From Candidatus Mycobacterium wuenschmannii (GTDB lineage: Bacteria > Actinomycetota > Actinomycetes > Mycobacteriales > Mycobacteriaceae), in contig NZ_CP126981.1 of the NCBI RefSeq assembly GCF_030252325.1, positions 3,038,001 to 3,102,000 of the forward strand: 64,000 nucleotides of DNA, read 5' to 3'. The first letter of the stretch is position 1; each line of letters starts with the position of its first letter. The notes beneath the pieces are model-generated. The model saw only the letters and a list, made by a program, of their open reading frames with translations. It was not told the DNA's origin and searched no databases. A program made the translations under genes and the position numbers. This document shows, piece by piece, positions 43,839-64,000 of this stretch.

Positions 43839-43845
43839 TGCGACG

Positions 43846-45519: not shown

Positions 45520-45537
45520 ATGGGTCGTATGACCCAC
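45520..45537. promoter_or_regulatory. Palindrome upstream of the flavoprotein gene, matching the MDR operator
   Basis: TGGGTC and GACCCA form inverted arms around GTAT (45521-45536), within ATGGG-N8-CCCAC. The GGG-N8-CCC geometry and central TAT are the same as in the palindrome at 41473-41498. It lies about 50 bp before the ATG at 45586, and just after the Ada-like gene, in a promoter-like position. Confidence 0.6.
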
Positions 45538-45585
45538 TTAGCTGGAATCGCACTATGCTGGCCCGGAATCCAACGGAGGGGCGAC

Positions 45586-47034
45586 ATGGTTGCAGACCAG
45601 GACACCTACGACGTCATCGTGCTCGGAGCGGGCCCGGTCGGCCAGAGCGCAGCGGAGCGAGCTCGCTCCGCTGGTCTCAGCGTCGCGGTCATCGAGCGTG
45701 AATTGGTGGGCGGTGAGTGTTCCTATTGGGGGTGCGTCCCCAGCAAGGCCCTACTACGCCCGGTTATCGCGCTAGCCGACGCGGGTCGTATAGACGGCGC
45801 CCGCGAAGCCATTGCCGGGTCGGTCGACGTGTCCGGCGTCTTCGGCCGCCGCGACCGATATGTGAGCAACTGGGACGATACCGGCCAAGCCGCATGGGTG
45901 GCGAACATCGGTGCGACCCTTTTCCGAGGCCACGGACGCCTGGCCGGGCCTCGCCGGGTAGCGGTGACGACCACGGAAGCCGATCGGGTGACGCTCCTCG
46001 CGCGTCACGCCGTCGTGATCTGCACTGGAAGCCGTGCGGTGCTGCCCGATCTGCCGGGTATCGCCGAGGCTCGACCGTGGACCAATCGCAGCGGCACCGA
46101 CAGCAGTGCGGTACCCGATCGCCTTGCCGTGGTCGGCGCGGGCGGAGTCGGCGTCGAACTCGCAACCGCGTGGCAAGGTCTCGGCGCTTCGGTCACTCTG
46201 CTCGCCCGCGGACCAGTCCTGCTTTCCCGCTTGGAACCATTCGTCGGAGAGTTGGTGGCAGACGGCTTGCAAGACCGCGGGGTCGATGTGCGGACGAACG
46301 TTTCGGTGGTCGGCCTGCGCCGCGCACGCCCAGACGGTTCACTGACGCTGGAGCTGAGTGACGGCGACACTCTCGAGGTCGACGAAGTGCTGTTCGCGAC
46401 CGGCCGCGCTCCACTGAGTGACGACATCGGCTTGGAGACAGTGGGACTCACGCCCGGCAGCTGGCTCGACGTCGACGACACCTGTCGCGTCGCCGCGATC
46501 GACGACGGCTGGCTGTACGCGGCGGGCGACGCCAACCACCGCGCCCTTTTGACGCACGAAGGCAAGTACCAAGCACGAATCGCCGGCGCGGCGATCGCGG
46601 CACGCGCGACTGGACAGGCAGTGGACGATGCGCCGTGGGGTGCGCACGCCGCCACGGCAGACCGCCATGCGGTGCCGCAGGTCTTCTTCACCGACCCCGA
46701 GGCGGCGGCGGTCGGCCTGTCAGGCGATGAAGCGGAACGGGCTGGTTACCGCGTGCACATCGTCGACGTCGACATCGGCGATGTCGTTATGGGCGCGAAA
46801 CTTTACGCGGACGGGTACACCGGCCGGGCTCGGATGGTGGTGGATGCCGATCACAAGTACCTGCTCGGCGTGACGTTCGTCGGTCCCGGTGTCTCGGAAC
46901 TCCTGCACTCCGCAACCATCGCCGTCGCCGGCCAAGTGCCGATCAACCGACTGTGGCACGCCGTGCCGTGTTTTCCCACGATCAGCGAGGTGTGGCTGAG
47001 GCTTCTCGAGGCCTACCGAGATACGCAGCCTTGA
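45586..47034 (+). CDS. Pyridine nucleotide-disulfide oxidoreductase family flavoprotein
   Basis: A 482-residue class I flavin reductase starting at ATG 45586 behind GGAGGGG. The FAD motif is VIVLGAGPVGQSAAERARSAG, the redox pair is in GGECSYWGCVPSKALLRP (Cys45, Cys50), the NAD(P) site is LAVVGAGGVGVELATAWQGLG, and a late FAD motif is WLYAAGDANHRALLTHEGKY. The dimerisation domain ends near HAVPCFPTISEVWLRLLEAY. It resembles lipoamide dehydrogenase/mercuric-reductase-like paralogues of unknown substrate. Residues 406-482 are encoded again at 60509-60741, fused to MmpL. Confidence 0.9.
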   Translation: MVADQDTYDVIVLGAGPVGQSAAERARSAGLSVAVIERELVGGECSYWGCVPSKALLRPVIALADAGRIDGAREAIAGSVDVSGVFGRRDRYVSNWDDTGQAAWVANIGATLFRGHGRLAGPRRVAVTTTEADRVTLLARHAVVICTGSRAVLPDLPGIAEARPWTNRSGTDSSAVPDRLAVVGAGGVGVELATAWQGLGASVTLLARGPVLLSRLEPFVGELVADGLQDRGVDVRTNVSVVGLRRARPDGSLTLELSDGDTLEVDEVLFATGRAPLSDDIGLETVGLTPGSWLDVDDTCRVAAIDDGWLYAAGDANHRALLTHEGKYQARIAGAAIAARATGQAVDDAPWGAHAATADRHAVPQVFFTDPEAAAVGLSGDEAERAGYRVHIVDVDIGDVVMGAKLYADGYTGRARMVVDADHKYLLGVTFVGPGVSELLHSATIAVAGQVPINRLWHAVPCFPTISEVWLRLLEAYRDTQP

Positions 47035-47043
47035 AGCGTCCGG

Positions 47044-48102
47044 CTATTCCGGCCTGGGGTCGCCGAGTCGCGCACGCATCGCGCCCCACGGGTCGGCGTA
47101 GCGGCCCGGCGTATCGCGATACGCGGCCTGGCGTTTGAGAAACGCCCGGGCCAGCGGTGCGATCAACGCGATCGGGTAGCGCCGCCACCCGGTGGTCGCG
47201 CGCATCTCGGCCAGCATCGCTGGCCATGAATGGTGTTGGAACGACAGCGCCTGTTGCGCGCGCGTGGTGTCCAACCAGTCCGTTACGAACCAGTCATCCT
47301 CGCTGTCCGGGTCGCCCGGTCTACCGACCGGCAGCACGTTCGAGAGCCCGCGCGCCGCCGCCAACGCCGGCCCGACGTCCCGTTGCCGGAGCAGATGCGA
47401 GTCGTCGCCCGCAATCAACAGCGTCTCGCCGACAACGTCAGCCGTGGTCGCCGCGGCGAAAGCCGTCGCCACGTCGCGGACGTCGACGGTGTGGATCCGG
47501 CCGTCGGTCGGCAGCGTGCTCTCGAAGTACAGTGCGTCCCGGCTGAACGGGATCGCGCCCGGTACGACGCTCATCACCCCGCCGAGTCGCAGGATCACCC
47601 ACTCCAAATTCGAAGCGCGTACTAGATTTTCGGCCTCGATCTTGTGGGCGCCGTAGAGATCCGACGCACGCACCGGGGAATCGGCGGTCAGCCGCTCGGG
47701 ATGGCGATGCGGGTTGCGCGACCCGTACACGGCGTTACTCGAGGCCAGGATGAAGCGCGGCGGTCGTGGATGCGACTGCGCGGCGCGCACGAGCGCGGCG
47801 GTAGCGTCGACGTTGACACGTCGACCCAGTTCGCGGTTGCGGAAAATCGCCGGGATGATTAGCGCGGCGAGGTGGACGATCGCCGTCGGCGACTCCTCGG
47901 CGAGCAGGCAATCGACCTCGTCGGGCTTGGTGAGGTCGGCCCACCGAGTGGTCACCCCGGACGGCAACAACGCCGCCGCGGTGCGCTGATCCGGGGTACC
48001 GAGGTCGGTGACGACCACTCGATGCCCGTCCGCGGCCAGTCGGCGCACGGTCTGCGACCCGACTAGGCCGAATCCACCCGTGACCAGTACCTTTTCGGTC
48101 AT
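47044..48102 (-). CDS. NAD-dependent epimerase/dehydratase (SDR family), copy 1
   Basis: A 352-residue extended SDR starting at ATG 48102. The Rossmann motif GGFGLVG is at residues 9-15 (VLVTGGFGLVGSQTVRRLAA), then TDLGTPDQ, the strand IVHLAALIIPAIF, the catalytic-type ASSNAVYG and YGAHKIEAE (Tyr-x3-Lys). It would epimerise, dehydrate or reduce an NDP-sugar or similar substrate. It is convergent with the flavoprotein gene and divergent from the acyltransferase. Copy 2 of this gene (60751-61805) is frameshifted. Confidence 0.9.
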   Translation of the reverse strand: MTEKVLVTGGFGLVGSQTVRRLAADGHRVVVTDLGTPDQRTAAALLPSGVTTRWADLTKPDEVDCLLAEESPTAIVHLAALIIPAIFRNRELGRRVNVDATAALVRAAQSHPRPPRFILASSNAVYGSRNPHRHPERLTADSPVRASDLYGAHKIEAENLVRASNLEWVILRLGGVMSVVPGAIPFSRDALYFESTLPTDGRIHTVDVRDVATAFAAATTADVVGETLLIAGDDSHLLRQRDVGPALAAARGLSNVLPVGRPGDPDSEDDWFVTDWLDTTRAQQALSFQHHSWPAMLAEMRATTGWRRYPIALIAPLARAFLKRQAAYRDTPGRYADPWGAMRARLGDPRPE

Positions 48103-48193
48103 TTTCCCTTGCCTACGCAGCGGATATGACGTTCTCAAAAATGGAGAGTATCATGCTCACGACGACGATCGACGACGATTCGAGGGCTCCAGC

Positions 48194-48997
48194 ATGGCGG
48201 GCAGCAACGCGGAGAACCGCGAGACGGCTAAGTGGGATCCCGAGTTCACCAAGCAGGTCGCCAACACCGTCGGCCCGGTGATCAAGCAGTATCACCGCGC
48301 CGAGGTGCGCAACATCGAAAACGTTCCGGCCACCGGCGGGGCACTGGTGGTGTCCAACCACTCCGGCGGGATGCTCACGCCGGACGTGTTCATCTTTTCG
48401 CCGGCGTTCTACAAGAAGTTCGGCTACGACCGTCCCGTCTACACACTCGGCCATTACGGCATCTTCATGGGACCGTTGGACGGCATCCTACGACGACTGG
48501 GCGTCATCGAGGCCAGTCGCGAAAATGCCTCCACAGCACTGCATTCCGGCGCCGTGGTGTTGGTGTTCCCCGGCGGGGACTACGACTCCTACCGGCCGAC
48601 GTTCGCCAACACCATCGACTTCAACGGTCGCACCGGCTACGTGCGTACCGCGATAGAGGCCGGCGTTCCGATCGTGCCGACGGTCTCGATCGGCGCCCAG
48701 GAGACCCAGCTGTTCCTGACCCGCGGCCACTGGCTGGCCAAGAAACTGGGAATCACCAAGGCGCGCATGGACATTCTGCCGATCAGCGTCGGCTTCCCGT
48801 TCGGGCTGAGCATGATCTTTCCGCCGAACCTGCCATTGCCGTCGAAGGTGGTCACCGAGGTGCTCGAACCGATCGACATCACCAAGCGCTTCGGGAAGGA
48901 CCCCGACGTCGACACGGTCGACGAGTACGTCCGTTCGGTGATGCAAGCCGCGCTGGACCGGTTGGCCAAGCAGCGCCGCTTCCCGATCCTGGGCTGA
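48194..48997 (+). CDS. Lysophospholipid-acyltransferase-family (PlsC-like) protein, copy 1
   Basis: A 267-residue protein starting at ATG 48194 with GAGGG upstream. It carries the acyltransferase motif NHSGGMLTPD (His-x4-Asp-type catalytic region) and the acceptor-site motif VFPGGDYDSYRPTF, then a C-terminal FGKDPDVDTVDEYVR. The family acylates glycerol or lysophospholipids. No clear membrane anchor is present, but the hydrophobic PISVGFPFGLSMIFPPNLPL may peripherally associate. Followed 62 bp later by WS/DGAT, a sensible partner for triacylglycerol synthesis. Confidence 0.9.
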   Translation: MAGSNAENRETAKWDPEFTKQVANTVGPVIKQYHRAEVRNIENVPATGGALVVSNHSGGMLTPDVFIFSPAFYKKFGYDRPVYTLGHYGIFMGPLDGILRRLGVIEASRENASTALHSGAVVLVFPGGDYDSYRPTFANTIDFNGRTGYVRTAIEAGVPIVPTVSIGAQETQLFLTRGHWLAKKLGITKARMDILPISVGFPFGLSMIFPPNLPLPSKVVTEVLEPIDITKRFGKDPDVDTVDEYVRSVMQAALDRLAKQRRFPILG

Positions 48998-49059
48998 ATG
49001 CGCCATTTCGCGGTTTCGCCAGCTCCGAAGTGCTTGCATGAGCGCACGGAGGTGGGCCG

Positions 49060-50487
49060 ATGAAACGACTCAACGGCATGGACGCCATGCTGCTCTACAG
49101 CGAGACGCCCAACCTGCACACCCACACGCTCAAGGTGGCGATCGTCGACCCTGAGGCCGCCGACACGGAATTCAGCTTCGAGGCGTTCCGGCACCATCTG
49201 CTGCGGCGGCTGCATCTCCTGGAACCGTTGCGCTACAAGCTCGTTGACATCCCATGGCGGTTACACCACCCGATGTGGCTGGAGAACTGCGACGTCGACC
49301 TCGACTACCACCTGCACCGGGTCCAGGTGCCCGCGCCCGGCGGTCGCCGCGAACTCGACGCGATCATCGGGGAGGTGGCGTCGACGCCGCTGGATCGCAG
49401 CCGCCCGTTGTGGGAGTTCCACATCGCCGAGGGATTGGCGGGCGGACGGTTCGCGCTCATCGGGAAGATCCATCACGCCCTCGCCGACGGCGTCGCCTCG
49501 GTGAACCTGCTCGCCCGCGCGATGGACCTCAGGGGCGCGCCGACCGACGAACGCGACAACGATGAGGCGGGCGTCAGCCCGACGACGGCAGGTCTGCTGG
49601 TCGCCGCCGGGCGCGATCACATCCGGCAAATCACCGATCTTCCCGGTCTGGTCGGCGATGCGGCGAAAGGCTTCACCCGGGTGCGCCGGCGCACGAAAGA
49701 GCGCGGAGATCATCCCGACCTCGCCGACGCCTTCGATGCCCCGCCGACGTTCCTCAACCACGTGGTGTCACCGCAGCGCCGGTTCGCCACCACGGCGCTG
49801 CGCCTGGCCGACGTCAAGGCCACCTCGAAGGCACTCGGTATCACCGTCAACGACGTGGTGCTCGCGACGGCTGCGGGTGCGCTGCGCCGGCTGTTGCTGC
49901 ACTACGACGGCAAAGCCGACCGGCCGATCATCGCGTCGGTCCCCACGGCCACCGACAAATCGGACCGCGTCACCGGCAACGAGATCAGCGGGCTGTCGAT
50001 TTCACTGCCCGTGCATGTCGCCGATCCGGCCGAACGGGCCCAGCTCGTCGCGCTGGCCACCAAGATCGCCAAGGAGGACCATGAGATCCTCGGCCCGAAG
50101 CTGTACGGACAGTTGATGGGTTACCTACCGACGGCGATTGCCCCCGCGGCGTTCCGCTGGCTCGGCCGGCGCGATGCGCCGAACAAGATGATGAACGTGG
50201 CGGTGTCCAGCGTGCCCGGGCCGCGCGAACGCGGCCACTTCGCGGGTGCGCCGGTCAGCGAGATCTACTCGACGGGGGTGCTGTCACCTGGTGCCCCGGT
50301 GAACATCACCGTCTGGAGTTATGTCGACAAGCTCGGCGTCGCGGTGCTCACCGACGACGAGACCTTCGACGACCCGCACGAGGCCACCGAAGCACTCAGT
50401 GCGGCATTCGGTGAACTACGTTGCACCGCTGGACTTTCCGCGCAAGATAGTCCGGTCGACCTGATGGCCGAGCACGCACTGCGCTAG
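49060..50487 (+). CDS. Wax ester synthase/diacylglycerol acyltransferase (WS/DGAT), copy 1
   Basis: A 475-residue WS/DGAT starting at ATG 49060 behind GGAGG. It opens [17 protein letters not shown], has the active-site motif HHALADG (in [19 protein letters not shown], about residues 141-147), [15 protein letters not shown], and the C-terminal domain with [14 protein letters not shown] and [14 protein letters not shown]. It joins an acyl-CoA to diacylglycerol or a fatty alcohol to make storage triacylglycerol or wax. The stop overlaps purQ by 4 bp (convergent). Confidence 0.94.
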
Positions 50488-51157
50488 GCCGTCAGAACTG
50501 CGTCGAGCGCCGAGTAGAACAGGCCCAGACCGTCGTCGGACGGCCCCGTCAACGCCTCGGTGGCGTGCTCGGGGTGGGGCATCAGGCCGACGACGCGGCC
50601 GTTGGCCGAGCTGACACCCGCGATGCCACGCAGCGAGCCGTTGGCGTTGTCGTGGTAGCGGAAGACCACCCGGCCCTCGCCTTCCAGCTCGTCGAGCACC
50701 GCGTCGGAGGCCACGTACCGGCCCTCGCCGGACTTCAACGGGATCAGCAGGTCCGCGCCCTGCTCGTAACGCGACGTCCAGGCCGTCGACGTCGATTCCA
50801 CCCGCAGCCAGACGTCACGGCAGACGAAGTGCAGGCCGAGGTTTCGGGTCAGCGCCCCGGGCAGCAGACCTGCCTCGCAAAGCACCTGAAAACCGTTGCA
50901 GATACCCAGAACCGGCAATCCACGCCCCGCGGCGGCGACCACCTCGCCCATCACCGGGGCGAACTTCGCGATGGCGCCGCAGCGCAGGTAGTCGCCGTAG
51001 GAGAACCCACCGGGCACCACCACGGCGTCGACGCCCTTCAGGTCGGCGTCCGCGTGCCACAGACTGACGGCCTCGGCGCCGGCGAGCCGCGCGCGCGCGC
51101 GGCGTCGACATCGTCCAGCGTCCCGGGGAAGGTGATGACGCCGATGCGGGGCGTCAC
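50484..51157 (-). pseudogene. purQ: Phosphoribosylformylglycinamidine synthase, glutaminase subunit PurQ, frameshifted as read
   Basis: From the GTG at 51157 (overlapping purS by 4 bp) the translation [20 protein letters not shown] matches PurQ, then loses frame in a (CG)n run near 51090-51105. The correct frame resumes upstream of [20 protein letters not shown] and continues to the normal C terminus, with the glutaminase Cys in [16 protein letters not shown] and [11 protein letters not shown]. The span is 674 nt, one base short of the 675 needed for 224 residues plus stop, so a single-base deletion explains it. PurQ supplies ammonia to PurL. Confidence 0.9.
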
Positions 51158-51393
51158 TGCGGCTCTCGGCTGACGGTCCAGTCTTCGATCACCGTGTTGG
51201 CCAGAAGCGACTCGGCGATCTCGGCCAACGCCGCGTCGTCGACGCTGTCGTCTACCTCGAGCTCAAACCGCTTGCCCTGTCGGACATCCGAGATGCCGCC
51301 GTGGCCGAGCCGGCCCAGCGCACCGACGATCGCCTGGCCCTGCGGGTCGAGAATCTCGCCCTTGGGCATTACGTGCACAACCACCCGGGCCAC
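51154..51393 (-). CDS. purS: Phosphoribosylformylglycinamidine synthase subunit PurS
   Basis: A 79-residue protein beginning [19 protein letters not shown]. The GTG at 51393 has GAGGAG at the right spacing and gives the length recalled for mycobacterial PurS; a GTG two codons earlier is less favoured. It bridges PurL and PurQ to channel ammonia. The gene is intact and overlaps purQ by GTGA, so purSQ form one unit, located away from purL at 33-35 kb. Confidence 0.94.
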
Positions 51394-51460
51394 CCGCACT
51401 CCTCACTACTGTCTTGGCTGCTCGGCGCCAACTGTACCGGTCGGGCTCCCGGCCGGCGCT

Positions 51461-52132
51461 CTAGCAGGAGCCGACGTATGCCGCGCAGACCGAACCCGTC
51501 ATGGCGTCCAGCACTTGGGCGTCCGAAATGATCGGCCAGGGCGGCTGCACCGGGTCGGCCCCCCACAGCGTGAGCTCGCTGATCGTGCTGCTCTCCGGGT
51601 GCGCGACGAAGTAGGTGTGCAGGATGGTCGGCCCGCTGATCACCGCGGCAAGTCGGTTGGGCTCGTCCACGGTTACCGACGGCGACTCCGCGGGCGCGCC
51701 CAGCTGGCAGGCGCGCAGCGACGGCGCGACGAGGTCGAACACCGACCTCGCGACCGGACCGCCGTGTGCGGTGTCGCCCCGCCAATGCATGATCTCGGCC
51801 CGTAGCTGCCATTGGCCCACGGGCTTGTCGACCGATGCCCGCGCGGCGACGGCGGAGTTGCGGGTGTCCTGCGGGAACGGCGGCGTGGCGCACGCTTCCT
51901 CGAACCGGAATCGGGGCGTAGCACCGCCGGTCATCACCACCGCCGAGGCGGCCGGCGACGGCCAGCGGTAGGTCGCGCTGAGCGGTATCGCCTCCCGCGG
52001 GATCCAGGCGGTGGCCGGAATCTGATCGCAGGTGGGCGGGCAGGTCTCCGGATCGGCGCGCGCGGCCGGCGCCACCACGCAGGTGACCAGCAGGCCTCCC
52101 GCGATCAGCGCCGTCGCCAAGACTAGGCGCAT
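51461..52132 (-). CDS. Secreted protein of unknown function, 223 residues
   Basis: Starts at ATG 52132 behind a G-rich site, with a signal peptide (RLVLATALIAGGLLVTCVVAPAARA) cleaved near Ala-Asp. The mature part has four to six cysteines (ETCPPTCDQ, EEACATPPF, RACQLG, CAAYVGSC), probably disulfide-bonded, and a mostly beta pattern (AVVMTGGATPRFRFEEAC, HTYFVAHPESS). It matches the exported conserved-hypothetical genes found beside purS in mycobacteria. Function unknown. It runs divergently from the MBL gene, 33 bp away. Confidence 0.8.
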   Translation of the reverse strand: MRLVLATALIAGGLLVTCVVAPAARADPETCPPTCDQIPATAWIPREAIPLSATYRWPSPAASAVVMTGGATPRFRFEEACATPPFPQDTRNSAVAARASVDKPVGQWQLRAEIMHWRGDTAHGGPVARSVFDLVAPSLRACQLGAPAESPSVTVDEPNRLAAVISGPTILHTYFVAHPESSTISELTLWGADPVQPPWPIISDAQVLDAMTGSVCAAYVGSC

Positions 52133-52165
52133 GCCCCTGCACCCCATGAGCGCACAATCGTAGAC

Positions 52166-52804
52166 ATGCAACTCACGCATTTCGGTCATTCCTGCGTTCT
52201 TGCGGATTTCGGCCACACGAAGGTTTTGTTTGATCCGGGCAACTTCTCGCACGGGTTCGAGGGCATCACCGGCCTGTCCGCGATCGTGATCACCCACCAG
52301 CACCCCGACCACGTGGACGAGGCGCGGTTGCCGGCGCTGCTGGACGGCAATCCGGATGCCGCGCTGTACGCCGATCCGCAGACCACCGGGCAACTTTCGG
52401 TGCCGTGCCAGGTTGTACACGTCGGTGATGCGCTGTCGGTCGGCCAATTGACGATCCGCGCGCTCGGCGGCAAGCACGCCGTCATCCACCCGGAAATTCC
52501 TGTGATAGACAACATTTCGTATGTCATCGATGACGGCCAGCACGCCGGCAGCTTTATGCATCCCGGCGATGCGCTGTTCGTGCCCGACGAGCCGATCGAT
52601 GTGCTGGCCACTCCGGCCGCCGCGCCCTGGATGAAGATCTCCGAGGCGGTCGACTATCTGCGGGCGGTAGCGCCGGCCCGCGCGGTGCCGATCCACCAGG
52701 CGGTCGTCGCGCCGGAAGCGCGCGGCATCTACTACGGCCGGCTCACCGAAATGACCGACACCGACTTCCAGGTGCTGCCCGAAGAAACCGGCGTCACCTT
52801 CTAG
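52166..52804 (+). CDS. MBL-fold metallohydrolase (UlaG/RomA-like)
   Basis: A 212-residue protein with the metallo-beta-lactamase motif THQHPDHVDE (HxHxDH), an N-terminal HFGHSCVLADFGHTKVLFDPGN, the third-His region GSFMHPGDALFVPDEP, and AVPIHQAVVAPEARG. It is a small Zn hydrolase of the UlaG/NAPE-hydrolase-like type. Equivalent to Rv0786c. The substrate is unknown. Its end is convergent with the FAD-dehydrogenase gene, 13 bp apart. Confidence 0.9.
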   Translation: MQLTHFGHSCVLADFGHTKVLFDPGNFSHGFEGITGLSAIVITHQHPDHVDEARLPALLDGNPDAALYADPQTTGQLSVPCQVVHVGDALSVGQLTIRALGGKHAVIHPEIPVIDNISYVIDDGQHAGSFMHPGDALFVPDEPIDVLATPAAAPWMKISEAVDYLRAVAPARAVPIHQAVVAPEARGIYYGRLTEMTDTDFQVLPEETGVTF

Positions 52805-52817
52805 ATCCTCGGCGAAC

Positions 52818-54470
52818 TCAGCCGATGTCGTTGGCCGCGCCGCGGCCCGCCGCGCGCCCGGAAAAGATGCAGCCGCCGAGGAAGGTGCCCTCCAGCGCCC
52901 GATAGCCGTGCACACCGCCCCCACCGAAGCCGGCCACCTCGCCGGCGGCATACAGCCCGTCCAGTGGCGTGCCGTCGGCACCGAGTGCCCGCGAATCGAG
53001 GTCGGTCTCCAAGCCGCCCAACGTCTTTCGGGTCAGGATGTGCAACTTGACCGCGACCAGCGGCCCGGCCTTGGGGTCGAGGATGGGATGCGGCGCGACG
53101 ACCCGGCCCAGCTTGTCGCCGAGGAACTCGCGGGCTGCGCGAATCGCCGTGACCTGACCGTCCTTGGTGAATTTGTTGACCACTTCCCGATCGCGGGCGG
53201 TGACCTCGTCGGCGACCGTCGCGTAGTCCAGCGGCGTTACGTCGGGCAGCGTGTTCATCGCGGACACCAACTCGCGCAACGAGTTTCCGGTGACGAAGTC
53301 GACGCCCCGGTCGACGAAGGCCCGTACCGGACCCGGCGCACCCGACCCGGCCCGTGACGCGAGTAGCTGCCGCACGCTGCGACTGGTCAGGTCGGGATTC
53401 TGCTCCTGTCCTGAAAGTCCGAACTCTTTGCCAATGATCTTGCTGTTCAACACAAACCAGGTGTAGTCGTGGCCCGACTTCGCGATGTACTCCAGCGTTC
53501 CCAGCGTGTCGAAGCCGGGATACAGCGGAACCGGCAACCGCTTGCCGTTGCCGTCCAGCCACAGCGACGAAGGGCCCGGAATGATCCGGATGCCGTGCAT
53601 CGGCCAGATCGGGTCGTAGTTGGTGATGCCTTCGGTGTAGTGCCACATGCGATCCCGGTTGATCACCCGCGCACCGGTCTTCTCGGCGATCGCGATCATC
53701 CGGCCGTCGACGTGCGCGGGCACCCCGGCGAGCATCTTCTCCGGAACGCGGCCCATTCGGGTGGGCCAGTTCGCCCGCACCATGTCGTGGTTGCCGCCGA
53801 TGCCGCCGCTGGTGACGATCACCGCTTGGGCACGAAACTCGAACTCGCCGATCGAATTTCGCGACGAGGTGACGCCACGCGGCTCGGACGACGGTTCCAG
53901 CACGCTGCCCCGAACTCCGACCACCGCCCCACCCTCGACGATCAACTCATCGACCTGGTGCCGGTAGGCGAACTGCACGTGCGGGTTGTCGACCAGCCGG
54001 CGCGCGAAGATCTCGACAATCCCCGGCCCGGTGCCCCAGGTGATGTGGAATCGCGGCACCGAATTGCCGTGTCCCTGAGCGCCGTAGCCGCCGCGCTCGG
54101 CCCAACCGACCAACGGGAAGATCTTCAGCCCGCGGTCGCGCAGCCAGCTGCGCTTCTCCCCGGCCGCGAAATCCACGTAGGCGTGCGCCCATTGCCTGGG
54201 CCAGTAGTCCTCCTGCCGATCGAACGCCGCGGTGCCGAGCCAGTCCTGCAGGGCGAGTTCGTGACTGTCGCGGACGCCGAGCCGACGCTGTTCGGGACTG
54301 TCGACGAAGAACAGGCCGCCGAACGACCAGAATGCCTGCCCACCCAGGTTGGCGCTGTTCTCCTGGTCGACGATCAATACCCGCTTGCCACGCTCCGCCA
54401 CCTCGCAGGCCGCTACCAGGCCGGCCAGGCCCGCCCCGACGACGACGACATCAGCTTGGGTATCGCTCAT
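52818..54470 (-). CDS. FAD-binding dehydrogenase (fumarate-reductase/ketosteroid-dehydrogenase-like)
   Basis: A 550-residue flavoenzyme with the N-terminal FAD motif VVVVGAGLAGLVAACEVAERGKRVLIVDQE, then NLGGQAFWSFGGLFFVDSP, and the C-terminal FAD segment GLYAAGEVAGFGGGGVHGYRALEGTFLGGCIFSGRAAG. It resembles the Rv0785 group, which is related to 3-ketosteroid delta-dehydrogenases and fumarate reductase flavoproteins. The exact substrate is uncertain. It is convergent with the MBL gene. Confidence 0.9.
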   Translation of the reverse strand: MSDTQADVVVVGAGLAGLVAACEVAERGKRVLIVDQENSANLGGQAFWSFGGLFFVDSPEQRRLGVRDSHELALQDWLGTAAFDRQEDYWPRQWAHAYVDFAAGEKRSWLRDRGLKIFPLVGWAERGGYGAQGHGNSVPRFHITWGTGPGIVEIFARRLVDNPHVQFAYRHQVDELIVEGGAVVGVRGSVLEPSSEPRGVTSSRNSIGEFEFRAQAVIVTSGGIGGNHDMVRANWPTRMGRVPEKMLAGVPAHVDGRMIAIAEKTGARVINRDRMWHYTEGITNYDPIWPMHGIRIIPGPSSLWLDGNGKRLPVPLYPGFDTLGTLEYIAKSGHDYTWFVLNSKIIGKEFGLSGQEQNPDLTSRSVRQLLASRAGSGAPGPVRAFVDRGVDFVTGNSLRELVSAMNTLPDVTPLDYATVADEVTARDREVVNKFTKDGQVTAIRAAREFLGDKLGRVVAPHPILDPKAGPLVAVKLHILTRKTLGGLETDLDSRALGADGTPLDGLYAAGEVAGFGGGGVHGYRALEGTFLGGCIFSGRAAGRGAANDIG

Positions 54471-54497
54471 GGCGCTACACAGTAGCGACCGGAATGG

Positions 54498-55201: not shown

Positions 55202-55280
55202 ACGTCAATGGTGACCATCTCAGGTGTCCAGATAGTGACGTACACGCGGACAGCAGGCGTCAGTTCGCCCCGGCTACCAG

Positions 55281-55769
55281 CTAATTCGGCAAAGCGGCCT
55301 CGACGGCGGCGATGACCTCCGGCGCGTCGGGGACGGTCTGCGGCCGAAATCGATTGACCACCTGCCCACCCGGGGCGATCAGGAACTTCTCGAAATTCCA
55401 CTGCACATCGCCCGCCTCGCCGGCGGCATCGGGCGTCTTGGTCAGCTCGGCGTAGAGCGGATGCCGATCCGGGCCGTTGACCTCGGTCTTCTCCAGCAAC
55501 GGGAACGTCACCCCATAGGTGGTGGAGCAGAAGGTCTGAATCTCCTCAGCGGTGCCGGGTTCCTGCCCCATGAACTGGTTGCATGGGACCCCGAGAACGG
55601 TCAGTCCGCGCTCGCCGTAGTCGCGCGCCAACTGTTCCAGTGCCGCGTACTGCGGTGTCAGGCCGCATTTGGACGCCACGTTGACGACCAGGACGGCACG
55701 GTCGTTGTAGTCGGCCAGCGACAGGGCACCGCCGTCGAGGCCGGTCAGAGGGATCTCGGTCACAGTCAT
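55281..55769 (-). CDS. Glutathione peroxidase-family (thiol peroxidase) protein
   Basis: A 162-residue Cys-type GPx. The peroxidatic Cys lies in NVASKCGLTPQYAALEQL (about residue 35), with VPCNQFMGQEPG (Gln of the active site) and the WNFEKFLI Trp-Asn motif. Because mycobacteria lack glutathione, it probably uses thioredoxin, as many Cys-GPxs do. No signal peptide. It is upstream and separate from the DUF2334-like gene in the same direction. Confidence 0.93.
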   Translation of the reverse strand: MTVTEIPLTGLDGGALSLADYNDRAVLVVNVASKCGLTPQYAALEQLARDYGERGLTVLGVPCNQFMGQEPGTAEEIQTFCSTTYGVTFPLLEKTEVNGPDRHPLYAELTKTPDAAGEAGDVQWNFEKFLIAPGGQVVNRFRPQTVPDAPEVIAAVEAALPN

Positions 55770-55848
55770 GGTCCGGAGGCTACCTGCATCGCACCCGCGG
55801 CAGCAGATTGATCAGCTAGTTAGTTTGTCGTTACGCTGGACGACCGGG

Positions 55849-56717
55849 CTAAACCTCGGTGTATTCCACCGCGCCGTCTTCGAGCACCAGTCGGGCATTG
55901 CTGCCGTCGGGCCCGGCCGCTTCGGTGCGGAACACCGCCCTGCCGGGCTCGGTGCGCCAGATCAGCGTCGTCAGCGTCTCGCCGGGAAACACGGGCTTGG
56001 TGAACCGGGCGTCGATCGCGGTGATCGCGTCGGCGTTGCCCTTGCCGAGCTCGGCGATCAGCGCGCGACCGGAGAACCCGTAGGTGCATAGTCCGTGCAT
56101 GATCGGCTCGGGAAAGCCGGCCAGCTCCTTGGCGAACCACGGGTCGCTGTGCAGCGGATTGCGGTCGCCGGAGAGCCGGTAGATCAGCGGCTGGTCCTTG
56201 CGGGTGGGCAGCGCGACCCGGGCGTCGGGCTCGCGGTCGGGCACCTCCGGCGCGACGGGACGCTCGCCCGGCTGTCCGCCGAACCCGCCCTCGCCGCGGA
56301 TCACCAGCGTGGTCAGCGTCTCGGCGACCAGCGCGCCGGTGTCGGGATCGGTGCCGCGACCGCGCAGCATCAGGATCGCGTTCTTGCCCTCCCCTTGTCC
56401 TGGATGTCGGCCACCTCGGTGGTCACCGAAAGTTGCCCGCGGGTGGCAGCGGCGCATGCCCGGATGCCCTGCGAACCGTGCAGCAGCATCGCCCAGTTGA
56501 ACGACCCGACCTTGCCGGCCGCCCCGAATGCCGGGCAGCAGATCACCGCGTACGTCGGCAGCACCTGCTGGTCGATGTCGTGGCTGTTCTCGGTGGTGAA
56601 TTTGAGATCGTCGAGACCGGCCCCCACCCCGAGCGCGTAGAGCAGGGTGTCGCGGTCGGTCCACTCGAACAACTGGGGCTCGGTGGTCGCGCCGACGGCA
56701 TTCGGGTCGATCGCCAT
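55849..56717 (-). pseudogene. MaoC-type hydratase (3-hydroxyacyl-CoA/enoyl-CoA hydratase 2), frameshifted as read
   Basis: ATG 56717 (GGAGAC upstream) opens MAIDPNAVGATTEPQLFEW and runs to VTTEVADIQDKG, then loses frame at a GGGGAGGGC run near 56393. The next frame continues EGKNAILMLRGRGTDPD, the hotdog hydratase motif region YRLSGDRNPLHSDPWFAKEL (catalytic Asp/His), MHGLCTYGFSGRALI, and ends ARLVLEDGAVEYTEV. The span is 869 nt, one short of 870. Intact it would be a 289-residue double-hotdog hydratase of peroxisomal MFE-2/HtdY type for beta-oxidation or sterol side-chain breakdown. Confidence 0.88.
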
Positions 56718-56852
56718 GCGGGTCTCCTCTTCGGTCGGCCGGGTCTCATTGATTTGGCAACGCCATTTCATCACCCGCCCACCGGTGTGATTTATTCAGC
56801 CAACCCTGGCAAACGTGCCCCGCCGAGGGCCCCGGCAAGGCAGGCTGTCCGC

Positions 56853-57557
56853 ATGCGCAATCGCACTGTCGCCTGGAAGGTGGCTGCCGTCCTCGCCGCC
56901 GTGATCACCGTCGCCGCCTGCTCGAGTTCGCCGAAGGTGCGCAGCATCACGCTGACGTTCATCCGGCACGCCGAGTCGACCAGCAACGCCGAGCACGTCA
57001 TCAACACCGACGTTCCCGGCCCGGGACTCACCGCGGACGGCAAGGGGCAGGCCGAGCAACTCGCGCATCAGCTGTCGCGCAACAACTTCGACGGCGTCTA
57101 CGCGTCCAACATGGTCCGCACCTCGGAGACGGCGGAACCGCTGGCCCACGCGTTGGGCAAGCACGTCGAAATCCTGCCTGGCTTACGGGAAATCGATGCG
57201 GGCCGCTACAACAACTCCCCATCCAAGCGGGCCGACCTCACTTACCTGATCGCCCCGTCGCTGTGGTTGAAGGGCGACGTCAAGGACGCGGTCCCCGGCT
57301 CGATCAGCGGTGTTGAGTTCAACGACCAGTTCAGCGCGGCGGTGCAGAAGATCTACGACAGCGGCAACAGCAGGCCGGTGGCGTTCGCGCACGCCGAGTC
57401 GATCATGTACTGGACGCTGATGAACGTGAAGAACCCCAAGGACAGCCTCGCGACCAGCCATCCGCTGCCCAACCTCGGCCGCGTGGTGATCACCGGCAGC
57501 CCGGTGCTGGGCTGGACATTGGTCGAGTGGGACGGGATCAAGGACTTCAGCTACTGA
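56853..57557 (+). CDS. Histidine phosphatase (phosphoglycerate-mutase-like) lipoprotein
   Basis: A 234-residue protein with an N-terminal lipoprotein signal (AVLAAVITVAACSSS, lipid-modified Cys at about residue 24). The body has the phosphatase motif TFIRHAESTSNAEH, the SNMVRTSETAEPLAH second half, and AFAHAESIMYWTLM with the second catalytic His. It would sit on the outer face of the membrane, hydrolysing an extracellular phosphate ester. In-frame sequence upstream of the ATG has no start with signal-like character. Confidence 0.88.
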   Translation: MRNRTVAWKVAAVLAAVITVAACSSSPKVRSITLTFIRHAESTSNAEHVINTDVPGPGLTADGKGQAEQLAHQLSRNNFDGVYASNMVRTSETAEPLAHALGKHVEILPGLREIDAGRYNNSPSKRADLTYLIAPSLWLKGDVKDAVPGSISGVEFNDQFSAAVQKIYDSGNSRPVAFAHAESIMYWTLMNVKNPKDSLATSHPLPNLGRVVITGSPVLGWTLVEWDGIKDFSY

Positions 57558-57624
57558 CGTAGCGAATTCATCCGTTCGGTACGGTACTGGACAGTACTAC
57601 CCCTGCCCTCTAGGGTTATCCGCT

Positions 57625-58223
57625 GTGACCGGGACGGTTCAGCACGGCGTGACTGCTTCGCCCTGGTCGCCGCGCGAAACCGAGTTGCTCGACGTGACTC
57701 TGCAGCTACTGCAGGAGCACGGGTACGACCGTCTCACCCTGGACGCCGTGGCCGCCCGGGCCCGGGCCAGCAAGGCCACCGTGTACCGGCGCTGGCCGTC
57801 GAAGGCCGAACTGGTGTTGGCCGCCTTTATCGAGGGTGTCCGGCAGGTCGCGGTGCATCCGCACACCGGCAGCCTGCGCGGCGACCTCATCGCATTCGGG
57901 GAGGCGTGCCGCGAGCAGGCCTCCGCCCAGGCGGCACCATCCGCGCGGTGCTCGTCGAGACCTCGCGCCACCCCGCCCTAAACGAGGCGCTGCAGCATCA
58001 GTTCCTCGACCAACGCAAGGCGCTGATCGACGAGGTGTTGCACGACGCAGTCAAGCGCGGCGAGATCGACGCCGCGGCGATCAGCGACGAACTCTGGGAT
58101 CTGCTGCCCGGCTACCTGATCTTCCGGATCATCATGCCGAACAACCCGCCGACCAAGGCAACGGTGGCGGCCCTCGTCGACGAGGTTCTGCTCCCGAGCC
58201 TCAGCCGAAAGGTGAACCGGTGA
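57625..58223 (+). pseudogene. TetR-family regulator, frameshifted as read
   Basis: GTG 57625 starts a normal TetR N terminus (DVTLQLLQEHGYDRLTLDAV, ARASKATVYRRWPSKAELVL helix-turn-helix, about residues 20-65), which loses frame after REQASAQ at a GCGGCACC run near 57932. The next frame continues GTIRAVLVETSRHPALNEAL to DEVLLPSLSRKVNR at 58223. The span is 599 nt, one base short of 600. Intact, it would be a 199-residue repressor, probably of the adjacent mmpS-mmpL pair, whose GTG overlaps its stop by 4 bp. Confidence 0.85.
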
Positions 58224-58666
58224 AAAGCTTTTCGCCGACGGCATTCGTCCGGCGACGATGGATGCTCATCGTCGCGGTCGTCGTGATCGTCCTCGCCGCT
58301 TTCGGAGTCGACCGACTGCACGGCGCCTTCGACTCGGGCAAGAACGCCGCACACGGCGCCAGCGCCTCCGACGAGATCGTCCCGTTCAACCCCAAGCACG
58401 TGGTGTACGAGGTCTTCGGCACACCCGGGGCCACCGCGACCATCAACTACCAGGACGTGCACGCCGCTCCGCAACGGATCGACAACGCCCCGCTGCCATG
58501 GTCGTACACCATCACCACCACCGACCCCGCGGTGATCGCCAACGTCGTCGCCCAGGGCAACGGCAACACACTCGGGTGCCGAATCACCGTCAACGGCGTC
58601 GTCAAGGACGAGAGGACCGTCAACGAATTGAGCGCCTACACCTTCTGTCTGGACAAGTCCGGATGA
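58220..58666 (+). CDS. MmpS-family membrane accessory protein
   Basis: A 148-residue protein starting at GTG 58220, overlapping the TetR stop (GTGA) and the mmpL ATG (ATGA). One N-terminal membrane helix (WMLIVAVVVIVLAAFGV, residues 14-30) is followed by a periplasmic beta domain (HVVYEVFGTPGATATINYQD, WSYTITTTDPAVIANVVAQG, CRITVNGVVKDERTV) with a Cys pair. MmpS proteins partner MmpL transporters to export lipids or siderophores and to expel drugs. The coupling of tetR-mmpS-mmpL is typical of such efflux units. Confidence 0.92.
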   Translation: MKSFSPTAFVRRRWMLIVAVVVIVLAAFGVDRLHGAFDSGKNAAHGASASDEIVPFNPKHVVYEVFGTPGATATINYQDVHAAPQRIDNAPLPWSYTITTTDPAVIANVVAQGNGNTLGCRITVNGVVKDERTVNELSAYTFCLDKSG

Positions 58667-60741
58667 GCGACCACAGCGCGCGGCGGCCCCGCGTCCCGCA
58701 TCTCATTCACCGGCTTGCATTGCCGATCCTGCTGTTCTGGGTGGCGGCGGCGATGATCCCGAACATCGTCATCCCCCAACTGGAAGAGGTCGGGCGGCTG
58801 CACAACGTCGGCATCAGTTCCCCCGATGCGCCGTCGTACCAGTCGATCAAGCACATCGGAAAGGTGTTCCACGAGTTCGACTCCGACAGTTCGGCGATGA
58901 TCGTGCTCGAGGGCGACAAGCCCCTCGGCCCGGACGCGCACAAGTTCTACGACCAGATGGTCCACAAGCTGGAGCGCGACACCGCGCACGTCGAGCACAT
59001 CCAGGACTTCTGGGGTGACACCCTGACCGCGGCCGGGTCACAGAGCACCGACGGTAAGGCCGCCTACGTCCAGCTGTTCCTCGCCGGGGCCCAGGGCGAC
59101 GCGAAGGCCAACGATTCCGTCGACGCCATCCGCAACACCATCGACCACATGCAGGCGCCGCCCGGCGTCAAGGTCTACCTGACCGGCGCCGCGCCGGCGA
59201 TCGCCGACCAGTTCACCGCGGGCAACAAGGGCAACAACAAAGTCACCGGGCTCACCGTTGCCGTGATTGCGGTGATGCTGTTCTTCGTCTACCGGTCGTT
59301 CGCCACCACCGGACTGGTTCTTGCCACCGTGCTGATCGAAATGGCCGCCGCGCGTGGGTTTGTCGCATTTTTGGGCAACGCGGGAGTTCTGCCGCTGTCG
59401 ACCTACGCGACGAATCTGCTCACGCTGCTGGTGATCGCGGCCGGCACCGACTACGCCATATTCTTCGTCGGCCGCTACCAGGAGGCCCGGTCGGCCGGCG
59501 ACGAGCGTGAAGACGCGTACTACAAAATGTACGAGGGCACGTCGCATGTCGTGCTGGGCTCGGGCCTGACCGTCGCCAGCGCGGTGGCCTGCCTCGCCTT
59601 CACCCGACTGCCCTACTTCCAGAGCCTGGGCATCCCCGCCGCGATCGGCATCGTCATCGCGCTCGTCGCTTCGCTGACGCTGGGTCCGGCCATCCTCGTG
59701 ATCGCCAGCCGCTTCGGGCTGTTCGATCCCAAACGCGCGCTACAGACTCGCGGCTGGCGCCGCATCGGGACCGCGATCGTCCGGTGGCCGGGCCCAATTC
59801 TGGTGGTGTCCATCGCAGTTGCCCTCATTGGACTGCTCGCCCTGCCCGGCTACAAAACCAGCTACGACATCCGTCCCTACATTCCGTCGGACGCGCCGGC
59901 CAACGTGGGGTACACCGCCGCCGAGCGGCATTTCTCCCGCGCTCGGTTAGAGCCCGAGCTGCTGATGGTCGAGGCCGACCACGACCTGCGCAACCCGGCC
60001 GACATGCTGGTGCTGGAGAAGATCGCCAAAGGCATCTTCCACATTCCCGGAATCGCTCAGGTGCAGTCGATTACGCGTCCGCTGGGCGCACCGCTGGACC
60101 ACAGTTCGATCGCGTTCCAGATCAGCCAGCAGAGTGTCGGTCAGGTGCAGAACCTGAAGTATCAGGCGGACCGCGCGCGCGACTTGCTCACGCAGTCACA
60201 GGAACTCGACAAGACCATCGGAATCCTGCAGCAGCAGTACACGCTGCAGCAGCAACTCGCCACCGCTACCCACGACGAGACGCAGAAGTTCCACGAGACG
60301 CTGGCGATCATCAACGAGGTCCGGGACAAGCTCGCGAACTTCGACGACTTCTTTCGGCCGTTGCACAGCTACTTCTACTGGGAGAAGCACTGCTACGACA
60401 TCCCGATCTGCTTCGCGCTGCGCAATACCTTCGAGTCGATCGACAGCATCGACGAGCTCACCGAGAAGTTCGGCGACCTGACGACCAGCCTGGACAAGCT
60501 CGACGCGATTTACGCGGACGGGTACACCGGCCGGGCTCGGATGGTGGTGGATGCCGATCACAAGTACCTGCTCGGCGTGACGTTCGTCGGTCCCGGTGTC
60601 TCGGAACTCCTGCACTCCGCAACCATCGCCGTCGCCGGCCAAGTGCCGATCAACCGACTGTGGCACGCCGTGCCGTGTTTTCCCACGATCAGCGAGGTGT
60701 GGCTGAGGCTTCTCGAGGCCTACCGAGATACGCAGCCTTGA
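58663..60741 (+). CDS. MmpL N-terminal two-thirds fused in frame to the tail of a flavoprotein (chimeric ORF)
   Basis: ATG 58663 begins SDHSARRPRVPHLIHRLALP and runs as an MmpL RND transporter for 615 residues: TM1 (ILLFWVAAAMIPNIVI), the first periplasmic domain, the helix bundle with AAGTDYAIFFVGRYQEAR, TM7 (ILVVSIAVALIGLLALPG) and a helical second periplasmic domain. At 60508/60509, after TTSLDKLDA, it switches without losing frame to 77 residues identical to the end of the flavoprotein at 46802-47034. The normal C-terminal membrane half of MmpL is missing, so this product should not transport. Confidence 0.9.
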   Translation: MSDHSARRPRVPHLIHRLALPILLFWVAAAMIPNIVIPQLEEVGRLHNVGISSPDAPSYQSIKHIGKVFHEFDSDSSAMIVLEGDKPLGPDAHKFYDQMVHKLERDTAHVEHIQDFWGDTLTAAGSQSTDGKAAYVQLFLAGAQGDAKANDSVDAIRNTIDHMQAPPGVKVYLTGAAPAIADQFTAGNKGNNKVTGLTVAVIAVMLFFVYRSFATTGLVLATVLIEMAAARGFVAFLGNAGVLPLSTYATNLLTLLVIAAGTDYAIFFVGRYQEARSAGDEREDAYYKMYEGTSHVVLGSGLTVASAVACLAFTRLPYFQSLGIPAAIGIVIALVASLTLGPAILVIASRFGLFDPKRALQTRGWRRIGTAIVRWPGPILVVSIAVALIGLLALPGYKTSYDIRPYIPSDAPANVGYTAAERHFSRARLEPELLMVEADHDLRNPADMLVLEKIAKGIFHIPGIAQVQSITRPLGAPLDHSSIAFQISQQSVGQVQNLKYQADRARDLLTQSQELDKTIGILQQQYTLQQQLATATHDETQKFHETLAIINEVRDKLANFDDFFRPLHSYFYWEKHCYDIPICFALRNTFESIDSIDELTEKFGDLTTSLDKLDAIYADGYTGRARMVVDADHKYLLGVTFVGPGVSELLHSATIAVAGQVPINRLWHAVPCFPTISEVWLRLLEAYRDTQP

Positions 60742-60750
60742 AGCGTCCGG

Positions 60751-61805
60751 CTATTCCGGCCTGGGGTCGCCGAGTCGCGCACGCATCGCGCCCCACGGGT
60801 CGGCGTAGCGGCCCGGCGTATCGCGATACGCGGCCTGGCGTTTGAGAAACGCCCGGGCCAGCGGTGCGATCAACGCGATCGGGTAGCGCCGCCACCCGGT
60901 GGTCGCGCATCTCGGCCAGCATCGCTGGCCATGAATGGTGTTGGAACGACAGCGCCTGTTGCGCGCGCGTGGTGTCCAACCAGTCCGTTACGAACCAGTC
61001 ATCCTCGCTGTCCGGGTCGCCCGGTCTACCGACCGGCAGCACGTTCGAGAGCGCGCGCCGCCGCCAACGCCGGCCCGACGTCCCGTTGCCGGAGCAGATG
61101 CGAGTCGTCGCCCGCAATCAACAGCGTCTCGCCGACAACGTCAGCCGTGGTCGCCGCGGCGAAAGCCGTCGCCACGTCGCGGACGTCGACGGTGTGGATC
61201 CGGCCGTCGGTCGGCAGCGTGCTCTCGAAGTACAGTGCGTCCCGGCTGAACGGGATCGCGCCCGGTACGACGCTCATCACCCCGCCGAGTCGCAGGATCA
61301 CCCACTCCAAATTCGAAGCGCGTACTAGATTTTCGGCCTCGATCTTGTGGGCGCCGTAGAGATCCGACGCACGCACCGGGGAATCGGCGGTCAGCCGCTC
61401 GGGATGGCGATGCGGGTTGCGCGACCCGTACACGGCGTTACTCGAGGCCAGGATGAAGCGCGGCGGTCGTGGATGCGACTGCGCGGCGCGCACGAGCGCG
61501 GCGGTAGCGTCGACGTTGACACGTCGACCCAGTTCGCGGTTGCGGAAAATCGCCGGGATGATTAGCGCGGCGAGGTGGACGATCGCCGTCGGCGACTCCT
61601 CGGCGAGCAGGCAATCGACCTCGTCGGGCTTGGTGAGGTCGGCCCACCGAGTGGTCACCCCGGACGGCAACAACGCCGCCGCGGTGCGCTGATCCGGGGT
61701 ACCGAGGTCGGTGACGACCACTCGATGCCCGTCCGCGGCCAGTCGGCGCACGGTCTGCGACCCGACTAGGCCGAATCCACCCGTGACCAGTACCTTTTCG
61801 GTCAT
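60751..61805 (-). pseudogene. NAD-dependent epimerase/dehydratase, copy 2, frameshifted
   Basis: Counterpart of 47044-48102 with the same start (ATG 61805) and the same first 250 or so residues, including the GGFGLVG Rossmann motif and ASSNAVYG/YGAHK active-site region. Two 2-bp deletions in CG-rich runs (about 61051 and 60904) shift the frame after ALAAARA, giving an early stop at 61026 and losing the last third. The second deletion does not restore frame. The catalytic core is encoded but the C-terminal domain is lost. Confidence 0.88.
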
Positions 61806-61896
61806 TTTCCCTTGCCTACGCAGCGGATATGACGTTCTCAAAAATGGAGAGTATCATGCTCACGACGACGATCGACGACGATTCGAGGGCTCCAGC

Positions 61897-62700
61897 ATGG
61901 CGGGCAGCAACGCGGAGAACCGCGAGACGGCTAAGTGGGATCCCGAGTTCACCAAGCAGGTCGCCAACACCGTCGGCCCGGTGATCAAGCAGTATCACCG
62001 CGCCGAGGTGCGCAACATCGAAAACGTTCCGGCCACCGGCGGGGCACTGGTGGTGTCCAACCACTCCGGCGGGATGCTCACGCCGGACGTGTTCATCTTT
62101 TCGCCGGCGTTCTACAAGAAGTTCGGCTACGACCGTCCCGTCTACACACTCGGCCATTACGGCATCTTCATGGGACCGTTGGACGGCATCCTACGACGAC
62201 TGGGCGTCATCGAGGCCAGTCGCGAAAATGCCTCCACAGCACTGCATTCCGGCGCCGTGGTGTTGGTGTTCCCCGGCGGGGACTACGACTCCTACCGGCC
62301 GACGTTCGCCAACACCATCGACTTCAACGGTCGCACCGGCTACGTGCGTACCGCGATAGAGGCCGGCGTTCCGATCGTGCCGACGGTCTCGATCGGCGCC
62401 CAGGAGACCCAGCTGTTCCTGACCCGCGGCCACTGGCTGGCCAAGAAACTGGGAATCACCAAGGCGCGCATGGACATTCTGCCGATCAGCGTCGGCTTCC
62501 CGTTCGGGCTGAGCATGATCTTTCCGCCGAACCTGCCATTGCCGTCGAAGGTGGTCACCGAGGTGCTCGAACCGATCGACATCACCAAGCGCTTCGGGAA
62601 GGACCCCGACGTCGACACGGTCGACGAGTACGTCCGTTCGGTGATGCAAGCCGCGCTGGACCGGTTGGCCAAGCAGCGCCGCTTCCCGATCCTGGGCTGA
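61897..62700 (+). CDS. Lysophospholipid-acyltransferase-family (PlsC-like) protein, copy 2
   Basis: Sequence-identical, as far as I compared it, to the gene at 48194-48997, including the GAGGG ribosome site and start. The NHSGGMLTPD and VFPGGDYDSY motifs are intact, so this second copy should be functional. Its presence depends on the duplication being real. Confidence 0.88.
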   Translation: MAGSNAENRETAKWDPEFTKQVANTVGPVIKQYHRAEVRNIENVPATGGALVVSNHSGGMLTPDVFIFSPAFYKKFGYDRPVYTLGHYGIFMGPLDGILRRLGVIEASRENASTALHSGAVVLVFPGGDYDSYRPTFANTIDFNGRTGYVRTAIEAGVPIVPTVSIGAQETQLFLTRGHWLAKKLGITKARMDILPISVGFPFGLSMIFPPNLPLPSKVVTEVLEPIDITKRFGKDPDVDTVDEYVRSVMQAALDRLAKQRRFPILG

Positions 62701-62762
62701 ATGCGCCATTTCGCGGTTTCGCCAGCTCCGAAGTGCTTGCATGAGCGCACGGAGGTGGGCCG

Positions 62763-64000
62763 ATGAAACGACTCAACGGCATGGACGCCATGCTGCTCTA
62801 CAGCGAGACGCCCAACCTGCACACCCACACGCTCAAGGTGGCGATCGTCGACCCTGAGGCCGCCGACACGGAATTCAGCTTCGAGGCGTTCCGGCACCAT
62901 CTGCTGCGGCGGCTGCATCTCCTGGAACCGTTGCGCTACAAGCTCGTTGACATCCCATGGCGGTTACACCACCCGATGTGGCTGGAGAACTGCGACGTCG
63001 ACCTCGACTACCACCTGCACCGGGTCCAGGTGCCCGCGCCCGGCGGTCGCCGCGAACTCGACGCGATCATCGGGGAGGTGGCGTCGACGCCGCTGGATCG
63101 CAGCCGCCCGTTGTGGGAGTTCCACATCGCCGAGGGATTGGCGGGCGGACGGTTCGCGCTCATCGGGAAGATCCATCACGCCCTCGCCGACGGCGTCGCC
63201 TCGGTGAACCTGCTCGCCCGCGCGATGGACCTCAGGGGCGCGCCGACCGACGAACGCGACAACGATGAGGCGGGCGTCAGCCCGACGACGGCAGGTCTGC
63301 TGGTCGCCGCCGGGCGCGATCACATCCGGCAAATCACCGATCTTCCCGGTCTGGTCGGCGATGCGGCGAAAGGCTTCACCCGGGTGCGCCGGCGCACGAA
63401 AGAGCGCGGAGATCATCCCGACCTCGCCGACGCCTTCGATGCCCCGCCGACGTTCCTCAACCACGTGGTGTCACCGCAGCGCCGGTTCGCCACCACGGCG
63501 CTGCGCCTGGCCGACGTCAAGGCCACCTCGAAGGCACTCGGTATCACCGTCAACGACGTGGTGCTCGCGACGGCTGCGGGTGCGCTGCGCCGGCTGTTGC
63601 TGCACTACGACGGCAAAGCCGACCGGCCGATCATCGCGTCGGTCCCCACGGCCACCGACAAATCGGACCGCGTCACCGGCAACGAGATCAGCGGGCTGTC
63701 GATTTCACTGCCCGTGCATGTCGCCGATCCGGCCGAACGGGCCCAGCTCGTCGCGCTGGCCACCAAGATCGCCAAGGAGGACCATGAGATCCTCGGCCCG
63801 AAGCTGTACGGACAGTTGATGGGTTACCTACCGACGGCGATTGCCCCCGCGGCGTTCCGCTGGCTCGGCCGGCGCGATGCGCCGAACAAGATGATGAACG
63901 TGGCGGTGTCCAGCGTGCCCGGGCCGCGCGAACGCGGCCACTTCGCGGGTGCGCCGGTCAGCGAGATCTACTCGACGGGGGTGCTGTCACCTGGTGCCCC
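62763..64000 (+). CDS. WS/DGAT acyltransferase, copy 2 (cut by window edge)
   Basis: Counterpart of 49060-50487, starting at ATG 62763 with the same GGAGG site; 1,238 nt lie inside the window. The active-site HHALADG is present. The portion seen encodes about the first 412 of 475 residues and reads identically to copy 1. The 3' end is outside the window. Confidence 0.9.
   Translation, partial: MKRLNGMDAMLLYSETPNLHTHTLKVAIVDPEAADTEFSFEAFRHHLLRRLHLLEPLRYKLVDIPWRLHHPMWLENCDVDLDYHLHRVQVPAPGGRRELDAIIGEVASTPLDRSRPLWEFHIAEGLAGGRFALIGKIHHALADGVASVNLLARAMDLRGAPTDERDNDEAGVSPTTAGLLVAAGRDHIRQITDLPGLVGDAAKGFTRVRRRTKERGDHPDLADAFDAPPTFLNHVVSPQRRFATTALRLADVKATSKALGITVNDVVLATAAGALRRLLLHYDGKADRPIIASVPTATDKSDRVTGNEISGLSISLPVHVADPAERAQLVALATKIAKEDHEILGPKLYGQLMGYLPTAIAPAAFRWLGRRDAPNKMMNVAVSSVPGPRERGHFAGAPVSEIYSTGVLSPGA

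Follow-up and report, generated by a model that had tools for sequence, protein, structure and literature searches.

A 9-kb direct repeat flanking a copy of distant chromosomal DNA in a mycobacterial genome record, probably a chimeric join

Does the near-identical direct repeat at the right-hand end of this stretch record a duplication in the chromosome, or did it arise while the genome was being sequenced and put together? The window (the whole 64,000-nucleotide stretch analyzed) is G000:C1:3,038,001-3,102,000 of Candidatus Mycobacterium wuenschmannii, on a single contig of 5,102,433 bp (5.10 Mb). Aligned within the window, positions 46,802-50,297 and 60,509-64,000 match over 3,496 columns with no mismatches and two 2-base gaps, as the original prediction had described with the right coordinates, and a 3.5-kb match this close is far beyond chance. 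Comparison of the window with itself at E 1e-10 returned no second repeated pair besides this one. All three direct-repeat families found in the window at a length of 60 bp or more are fragments of this repeat (hereafter R), and there were no inverted repeats of at least 60 bp. The second copy starts inside an mmpL reading frame, which had also been noted.

The window edge truncates R copy 2. Each copy extends over 9,038 bp of the contig (46,802-55,839 and window-equivalent 60,509-69,546), so the expectation that the repeat would run on beyond 64,000 was borne out for another 5.5 kb. The original prediction had gone further and proposed a 13.7-kb tandem unit, 46,802-60,508, with purQ through mmpL following the window edge. 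The first half of that forecast held, since R does continue, but the second half did not, as a transporter, a peptidase, and purC stand where MaoC through mmpL should have been. Because the genes that follow R copy 2 are not those that follow R copy 1, the 13.7-kb tandem model fails: copy 2 ends after 9,038 bp, and a second unit that repeats the whole of the first is not found. Nor is the sequence between the repeats local, as 55,840-60,508 is a copy of contig positions 4,801,810-4,806,483 on the minus strand. The layout of the contig is thus A-R-B'-R-C, where A and C are the outer flanks and B' is the middle piece, a copy of the distant segment B. The frames after R copy 2 are presumably those of an MFS transporter, a ptrB-like peptidase, purC, and a P450, names given by our own reading of the frames. 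The features on which the argument draws are as follows.

45520..47034, plus strand: pyridine nucleotide-disulphide oxidoreductase gene, 504 aa, with Pyr_redox_2 and Pyr_redox_dim domains; spans the old A|R border.
46802..55839, no strand: R copy 1, 9,038 bp, carrying the oxidoreductase 3' end and epimerase, acyltransferase, WS/DGAT, purQ, metallo-beta-lactamase-fold, FAD-binding, DUF2334, and glutathione peroxidase genes; purQ and DUF2334 frames broken by short losses.
51092..61052, no strand: stretch holding all eight frame-assigned losses, 9,961 bp, centered on B'.
55839..55840, no strand: new join R|B', 2 bp shared.
55840..60508, no strand: B', 4,669 bp, the probably misplaced second copy of contig 4,801,810-4,806,483 (minus strand), carrying MaoC-like, phosphoglycerate-mutase-like, TetR-like, and MmpS-like genes and the 5' part of mmpL; MaoC and TetR frames broken.
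60508..60509, no strand: new join B'|R, 1 bp shared; mmpL fused in frame to the 3' part of the oxidoreductase gene.
60509..64000, no strand: first 3,492 bp of R copy 2, which runs on to window-equivalent 69,546; epimerase frame broken.

The source of B' is on the same contig, 1.7 Mb distant, and is oppositely oriented. Over the whole length of the piece, the two differ by four short losses in B', amounting to five bases in all, with no mismatch. At the source, the MaoC, TetR, and mmpL frames are long and intact, and a homology-based frameshift scan gave no signal in its 11.25 covered kb. MaoC and mmpL were named by Pfam, against which ten proteins were scanned; the TetR, MmpS, and phosphoglycerate-mutase labels in B' are our own reading of the sequence. 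No transposase or integrase was found among the ten proteins and no phage record matched, and a mobile element or phage was set aside.

The distance of the source also bears on a second kind of local event. A larger tandem duplication that later lost an internal segment, as described for DU2 of BCG Pasteur (PMC2448323), could yield direct repeats with unequal content between them. However, with a middle piece that is both distant and oppositely oriented, local duplication and deletion would be insufficient without a further transposition or inversion, and we regard this course as highly improbable.

The contig still has the two old borders, A|R and R|C, and every joined piece also stands at its own place, with B at 4.80 Mb. 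The oxidoreductase gene at 45,520-47,034 is a single open frame that spans 46,801/46,802, the left edge of R copy 1. At the new joins, the 2 bp and 1 bp shared are no more than chance gives, and with so little common sequence neither join stems from homologous recombination. The B'|R join produces a fusion frame at 58,258-60,741 (827 aa) with MMPL and Pyr_redox_dim domains. By length and domains, no such fusion protein appeared among the best 120 of 7,867 matches listed, a search of low power, as the window's own fusion was also absent from that list.

Taken by itself, the layout would fit a single crossover in R with a circle or plasmid that bore both R and B, giving A-R-B-R-C on integration. 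No plasmid record, however, covers 80% of 46,802-64,000, the best of the 12 that match reaching 9% at 79.7% identity, and a phage source, with no matching phage record, has no support either. Because B' matches its chromosomal source from end to end, it holds no vector or replication genes. We give integration of this kind very little credence.

Gene order in relatives was compared at 33 (L055-L087) of 80 related loci, mycobacterial and other, each at most 20.7 kb long and several ended by contig ends; the 80 may leave out the window's own genome. The DUF2334 gene of R co-occurred with C genes in 22 of the 33 and glutathione peroxidase with C genes in 8, while the epimerase and oxidoreductase genes that mark the A-R border occurred together in only 2. 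For that border, the intact oxidoreductase gene is stronger support than this thin co-occurrence. None of the 33 loci had any of four B genes. Among the matches listed from 41 genomes, many of those of relatives to the B part stop no more than about 10 bases from a join, and none runs from B into R past about 10 bases of the join. The A-R-B'-R-C layout was not found in relatives, among the listed matches from the 41 genomes or in the 33 loci, with each species represented by one genome.

Several observations concern the region to the left of R. A 421-aa frame at 35,974-37,239 (minus strand) matches frames in many related purQ loci. In the three that we viewed (L055, L056, and L058), it lies about 2.5 to 8 kb from purQ, compared with about 13 kb here, and extra genes therefore seem to stand between the two in this genome. 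As read from the translations, 40,008-41,360 is a single 450-aa frame of seemingly two TetR-type regulator halves in tandem, and 43,323-44,914 has a sigma-factor-like gene between two methylated-DNA-cysteine methyltransferase-like genes.

For the B region, gene order was viewed in four relatives out of 24 same-genus genomes compared. SDR, phosphoglycerate-mutase-like, and MaoC genes stand together in G017, G006, and G009 (L135, L138, and L141), with no mmpL between them, and a group of this kind in G022 has an mmpL, of 55% identity, at its end (L140). Elsewhere in G017, G022, and G009 there are pairs of TetR and mmpL genes (L136, L139, and L142). As the SDR, phosphoglycerate-mutase-like, and MaoC genes are grouped in relatives, gene order points to the distant locus as the usual home of the MaoC part of B, with the TetR-MmpS-MmpL group adjoining that part in this genome. 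At the distant locus itself (L054:6762-12475, contig 4,800,761-4,806,474), the TetR-MmpS-MmpL group sits between the SDR gene and the phosphoglycerate-mutase-like and MaoC genes, and so splits genes that are neighbors in G017, G006, and G009.

Further evidence comes from the small differences between the copies. Taking the R pair and the B pair together, there are nine differing places, five of them between the two R copies over their full 9,038 bp. In R copy 2, the epimerase frame is broken by two 2-base losses close to the left end of the copy, and in R copy 1, two 1-base losses break the purQ and DUF2334 frames. The fifth R difference is a small cluster about 35 bp before the R end, where there is one mismatch and copy 1 is two bases shorter; this cluster is outside coding frames, and the copy that changed is thus not assignable by frame. 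All of the differences that could be assigned by frame (8/8) are losses of 1 or 2 bases and all fall within 51,092-61,052, bounds that were chosen after the data had been seen, and the other 17,458 bp of duplicated DNA has no frame-assigned short loss. The ninth difference falls inside this stretch only if copy 1 changed; if copy 2 did, it is at window-equivalent 69,509-69,511, outside the stretch. Free of any bounds, so one-sided a sorting (copy 2 losses on the left, copy 1 losses on the right, and all B losses in B') has a chance of about 0.020 for the eight; giving the ninth to copy 1 lowers it to 0.012.

For each broken gene, the partner copy holds an intact version, and outside the one small cluster near the R end the differences are losses with no substitution. 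Real copies sequenced at even depth should agree except for errors common to both, and old copies differ mainly by substitutions. Loss without substitution fits sequencing error better than evolution, and the clustering of these small errors around B' suggests a sequencing or assembly mistake rather than biology. The caveat in the original prediction that a misassembly would look the same was well placed, and the clustered losses favor that side.

A homology-based frameshift scan, with 2,166 frames of at least 150 aa (shadow frames included) from 41 related loci as queries, gave a similar picture. Within the stretch, there were signals at 51.1 kb (23 queries), 54.7 kb (22), 56.4 kb (5), 57.9 kb (3), and 61.1 kb (3), i.e., five in 10.1 covered kb, as opposed to three in 49.5 covered kb elsewhere, at 37.2 kb (2 queries), 64.9 kb (1), and 74.1 kb (1); the coverage figures count shadow frames. 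The signal at 37.2 kb was discounted as a frameshift, being actually the border between two divergent genes. We also dropped a codon-model scan whose stop rule was too lenient; 54,717 was the one site that it flagged as having no stop close by, and it called other broken frames of the stretch ordinary borders.

Taken together, we consider it likely, at a probability of roughly 0.8 judged from the assembled sequence, that a chimeric molecule or read with thin coverage was built into the assembly, or that the layout is at most a rare variant. The true chromosome would then read A-R-C, with B only at its own place 1.7 Mb away. A DNA molecule or read consisting of the end of R, B', and the start of R would have entered the assembly, so that R came to be written twice around a misplaced copy of B. 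About 10 kb around the joins would rest on few reads, a low depth that we infer, and short losses would for that reason have been left uncorrected there; losses held in a single stretch of about 10 kb, centered on the misplaced piece, fit a consensus from few molecules. The chimera probably arose when the library was prepared or the genome assembled, rather than in a minority of the cells. Some points stand against a chimeric origin. For any single read, it is improbable that three pieces would be joined with both outer ones falling in one 9-kb locus. In one study, read chimeras in ligation libraries are above all inverted repeats (PMC13141652), which A-R-B'-R-C is not, and a benchmark saw assemblers similarly unaffected by chimeric reads (PMC6966772). 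Such reads are nevertheless known from ligation libraries, and one E. coli comparison gives 0.02-3.17% putative chimeric reads (PMC8495745).

Alternatively, the layout may be real and due to template switching during replication, in which R was copied, synthesis switched to B, 1.7 Mb away, for 4.7 kb and then back to the start of R, and the product became fixed in the strain. Two such switches would leave A-R-B'-R-C, the joins share 2 and 1 bp, and complex duplications with 1 to 30 bp of microhomology at their joins have been so read in starving E. coli (PMC3161906). Chance alone, however, also gives 1 or 2 common bases, and real copies, evenly covered, should not bear losses only on the sides that face B'. 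No relative has the layout, although one genome per species would be little test of a strain-level event. We therefore think template switching unlikely.

If the join is an artifact, the genome record holds about 13.7 kb of false sequence: the second set of R genes and the mmpL-oxidoreductase fusion would not exist, several genes would only seem broken, and gene counts and comparisons would be misled. One-sided short losses on the faces of copies turned toward an insert would then offer a way to suspect such joins from the assembly alone. If it is real, a mycobacterium would provide a clear example of complex duplication, and two template switches across 1.7 Mb would have doubled the purQ and lipid acyltransferase genes and produced a fusion gene of mmpL and the oxidoreductase in one frame. 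Nothing here points to a new biological system.

Among known systems, the layout resembles the long-distance template-switch (or MMBIR-type) duplications of starving E. coli, which are likewise direct duplications that have at least two new joins and share very little sequence at them (PMC3161906); it is unlike them in that the insert derives from a place 1.7 Mb distant and short losses are gathered around it. As direct chromosomal duplications in a mycobacterium, DU1 and DU2 of BCG Pasteur are also similar. Those, however, are tandem, at 29,668 and 36,161 bp (PMC2448323), whereas the repeats of the present layout are separated by a copy of a distant locus. The likeness to chimeric long reads in assemblies, where unrelated pieces of one genome are joined without homology (PMC8495745), is in the nature of the joins. 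The present chimera would consist of three pieces with both outer ones from one locus, and for that reason the error would look like a duplication.
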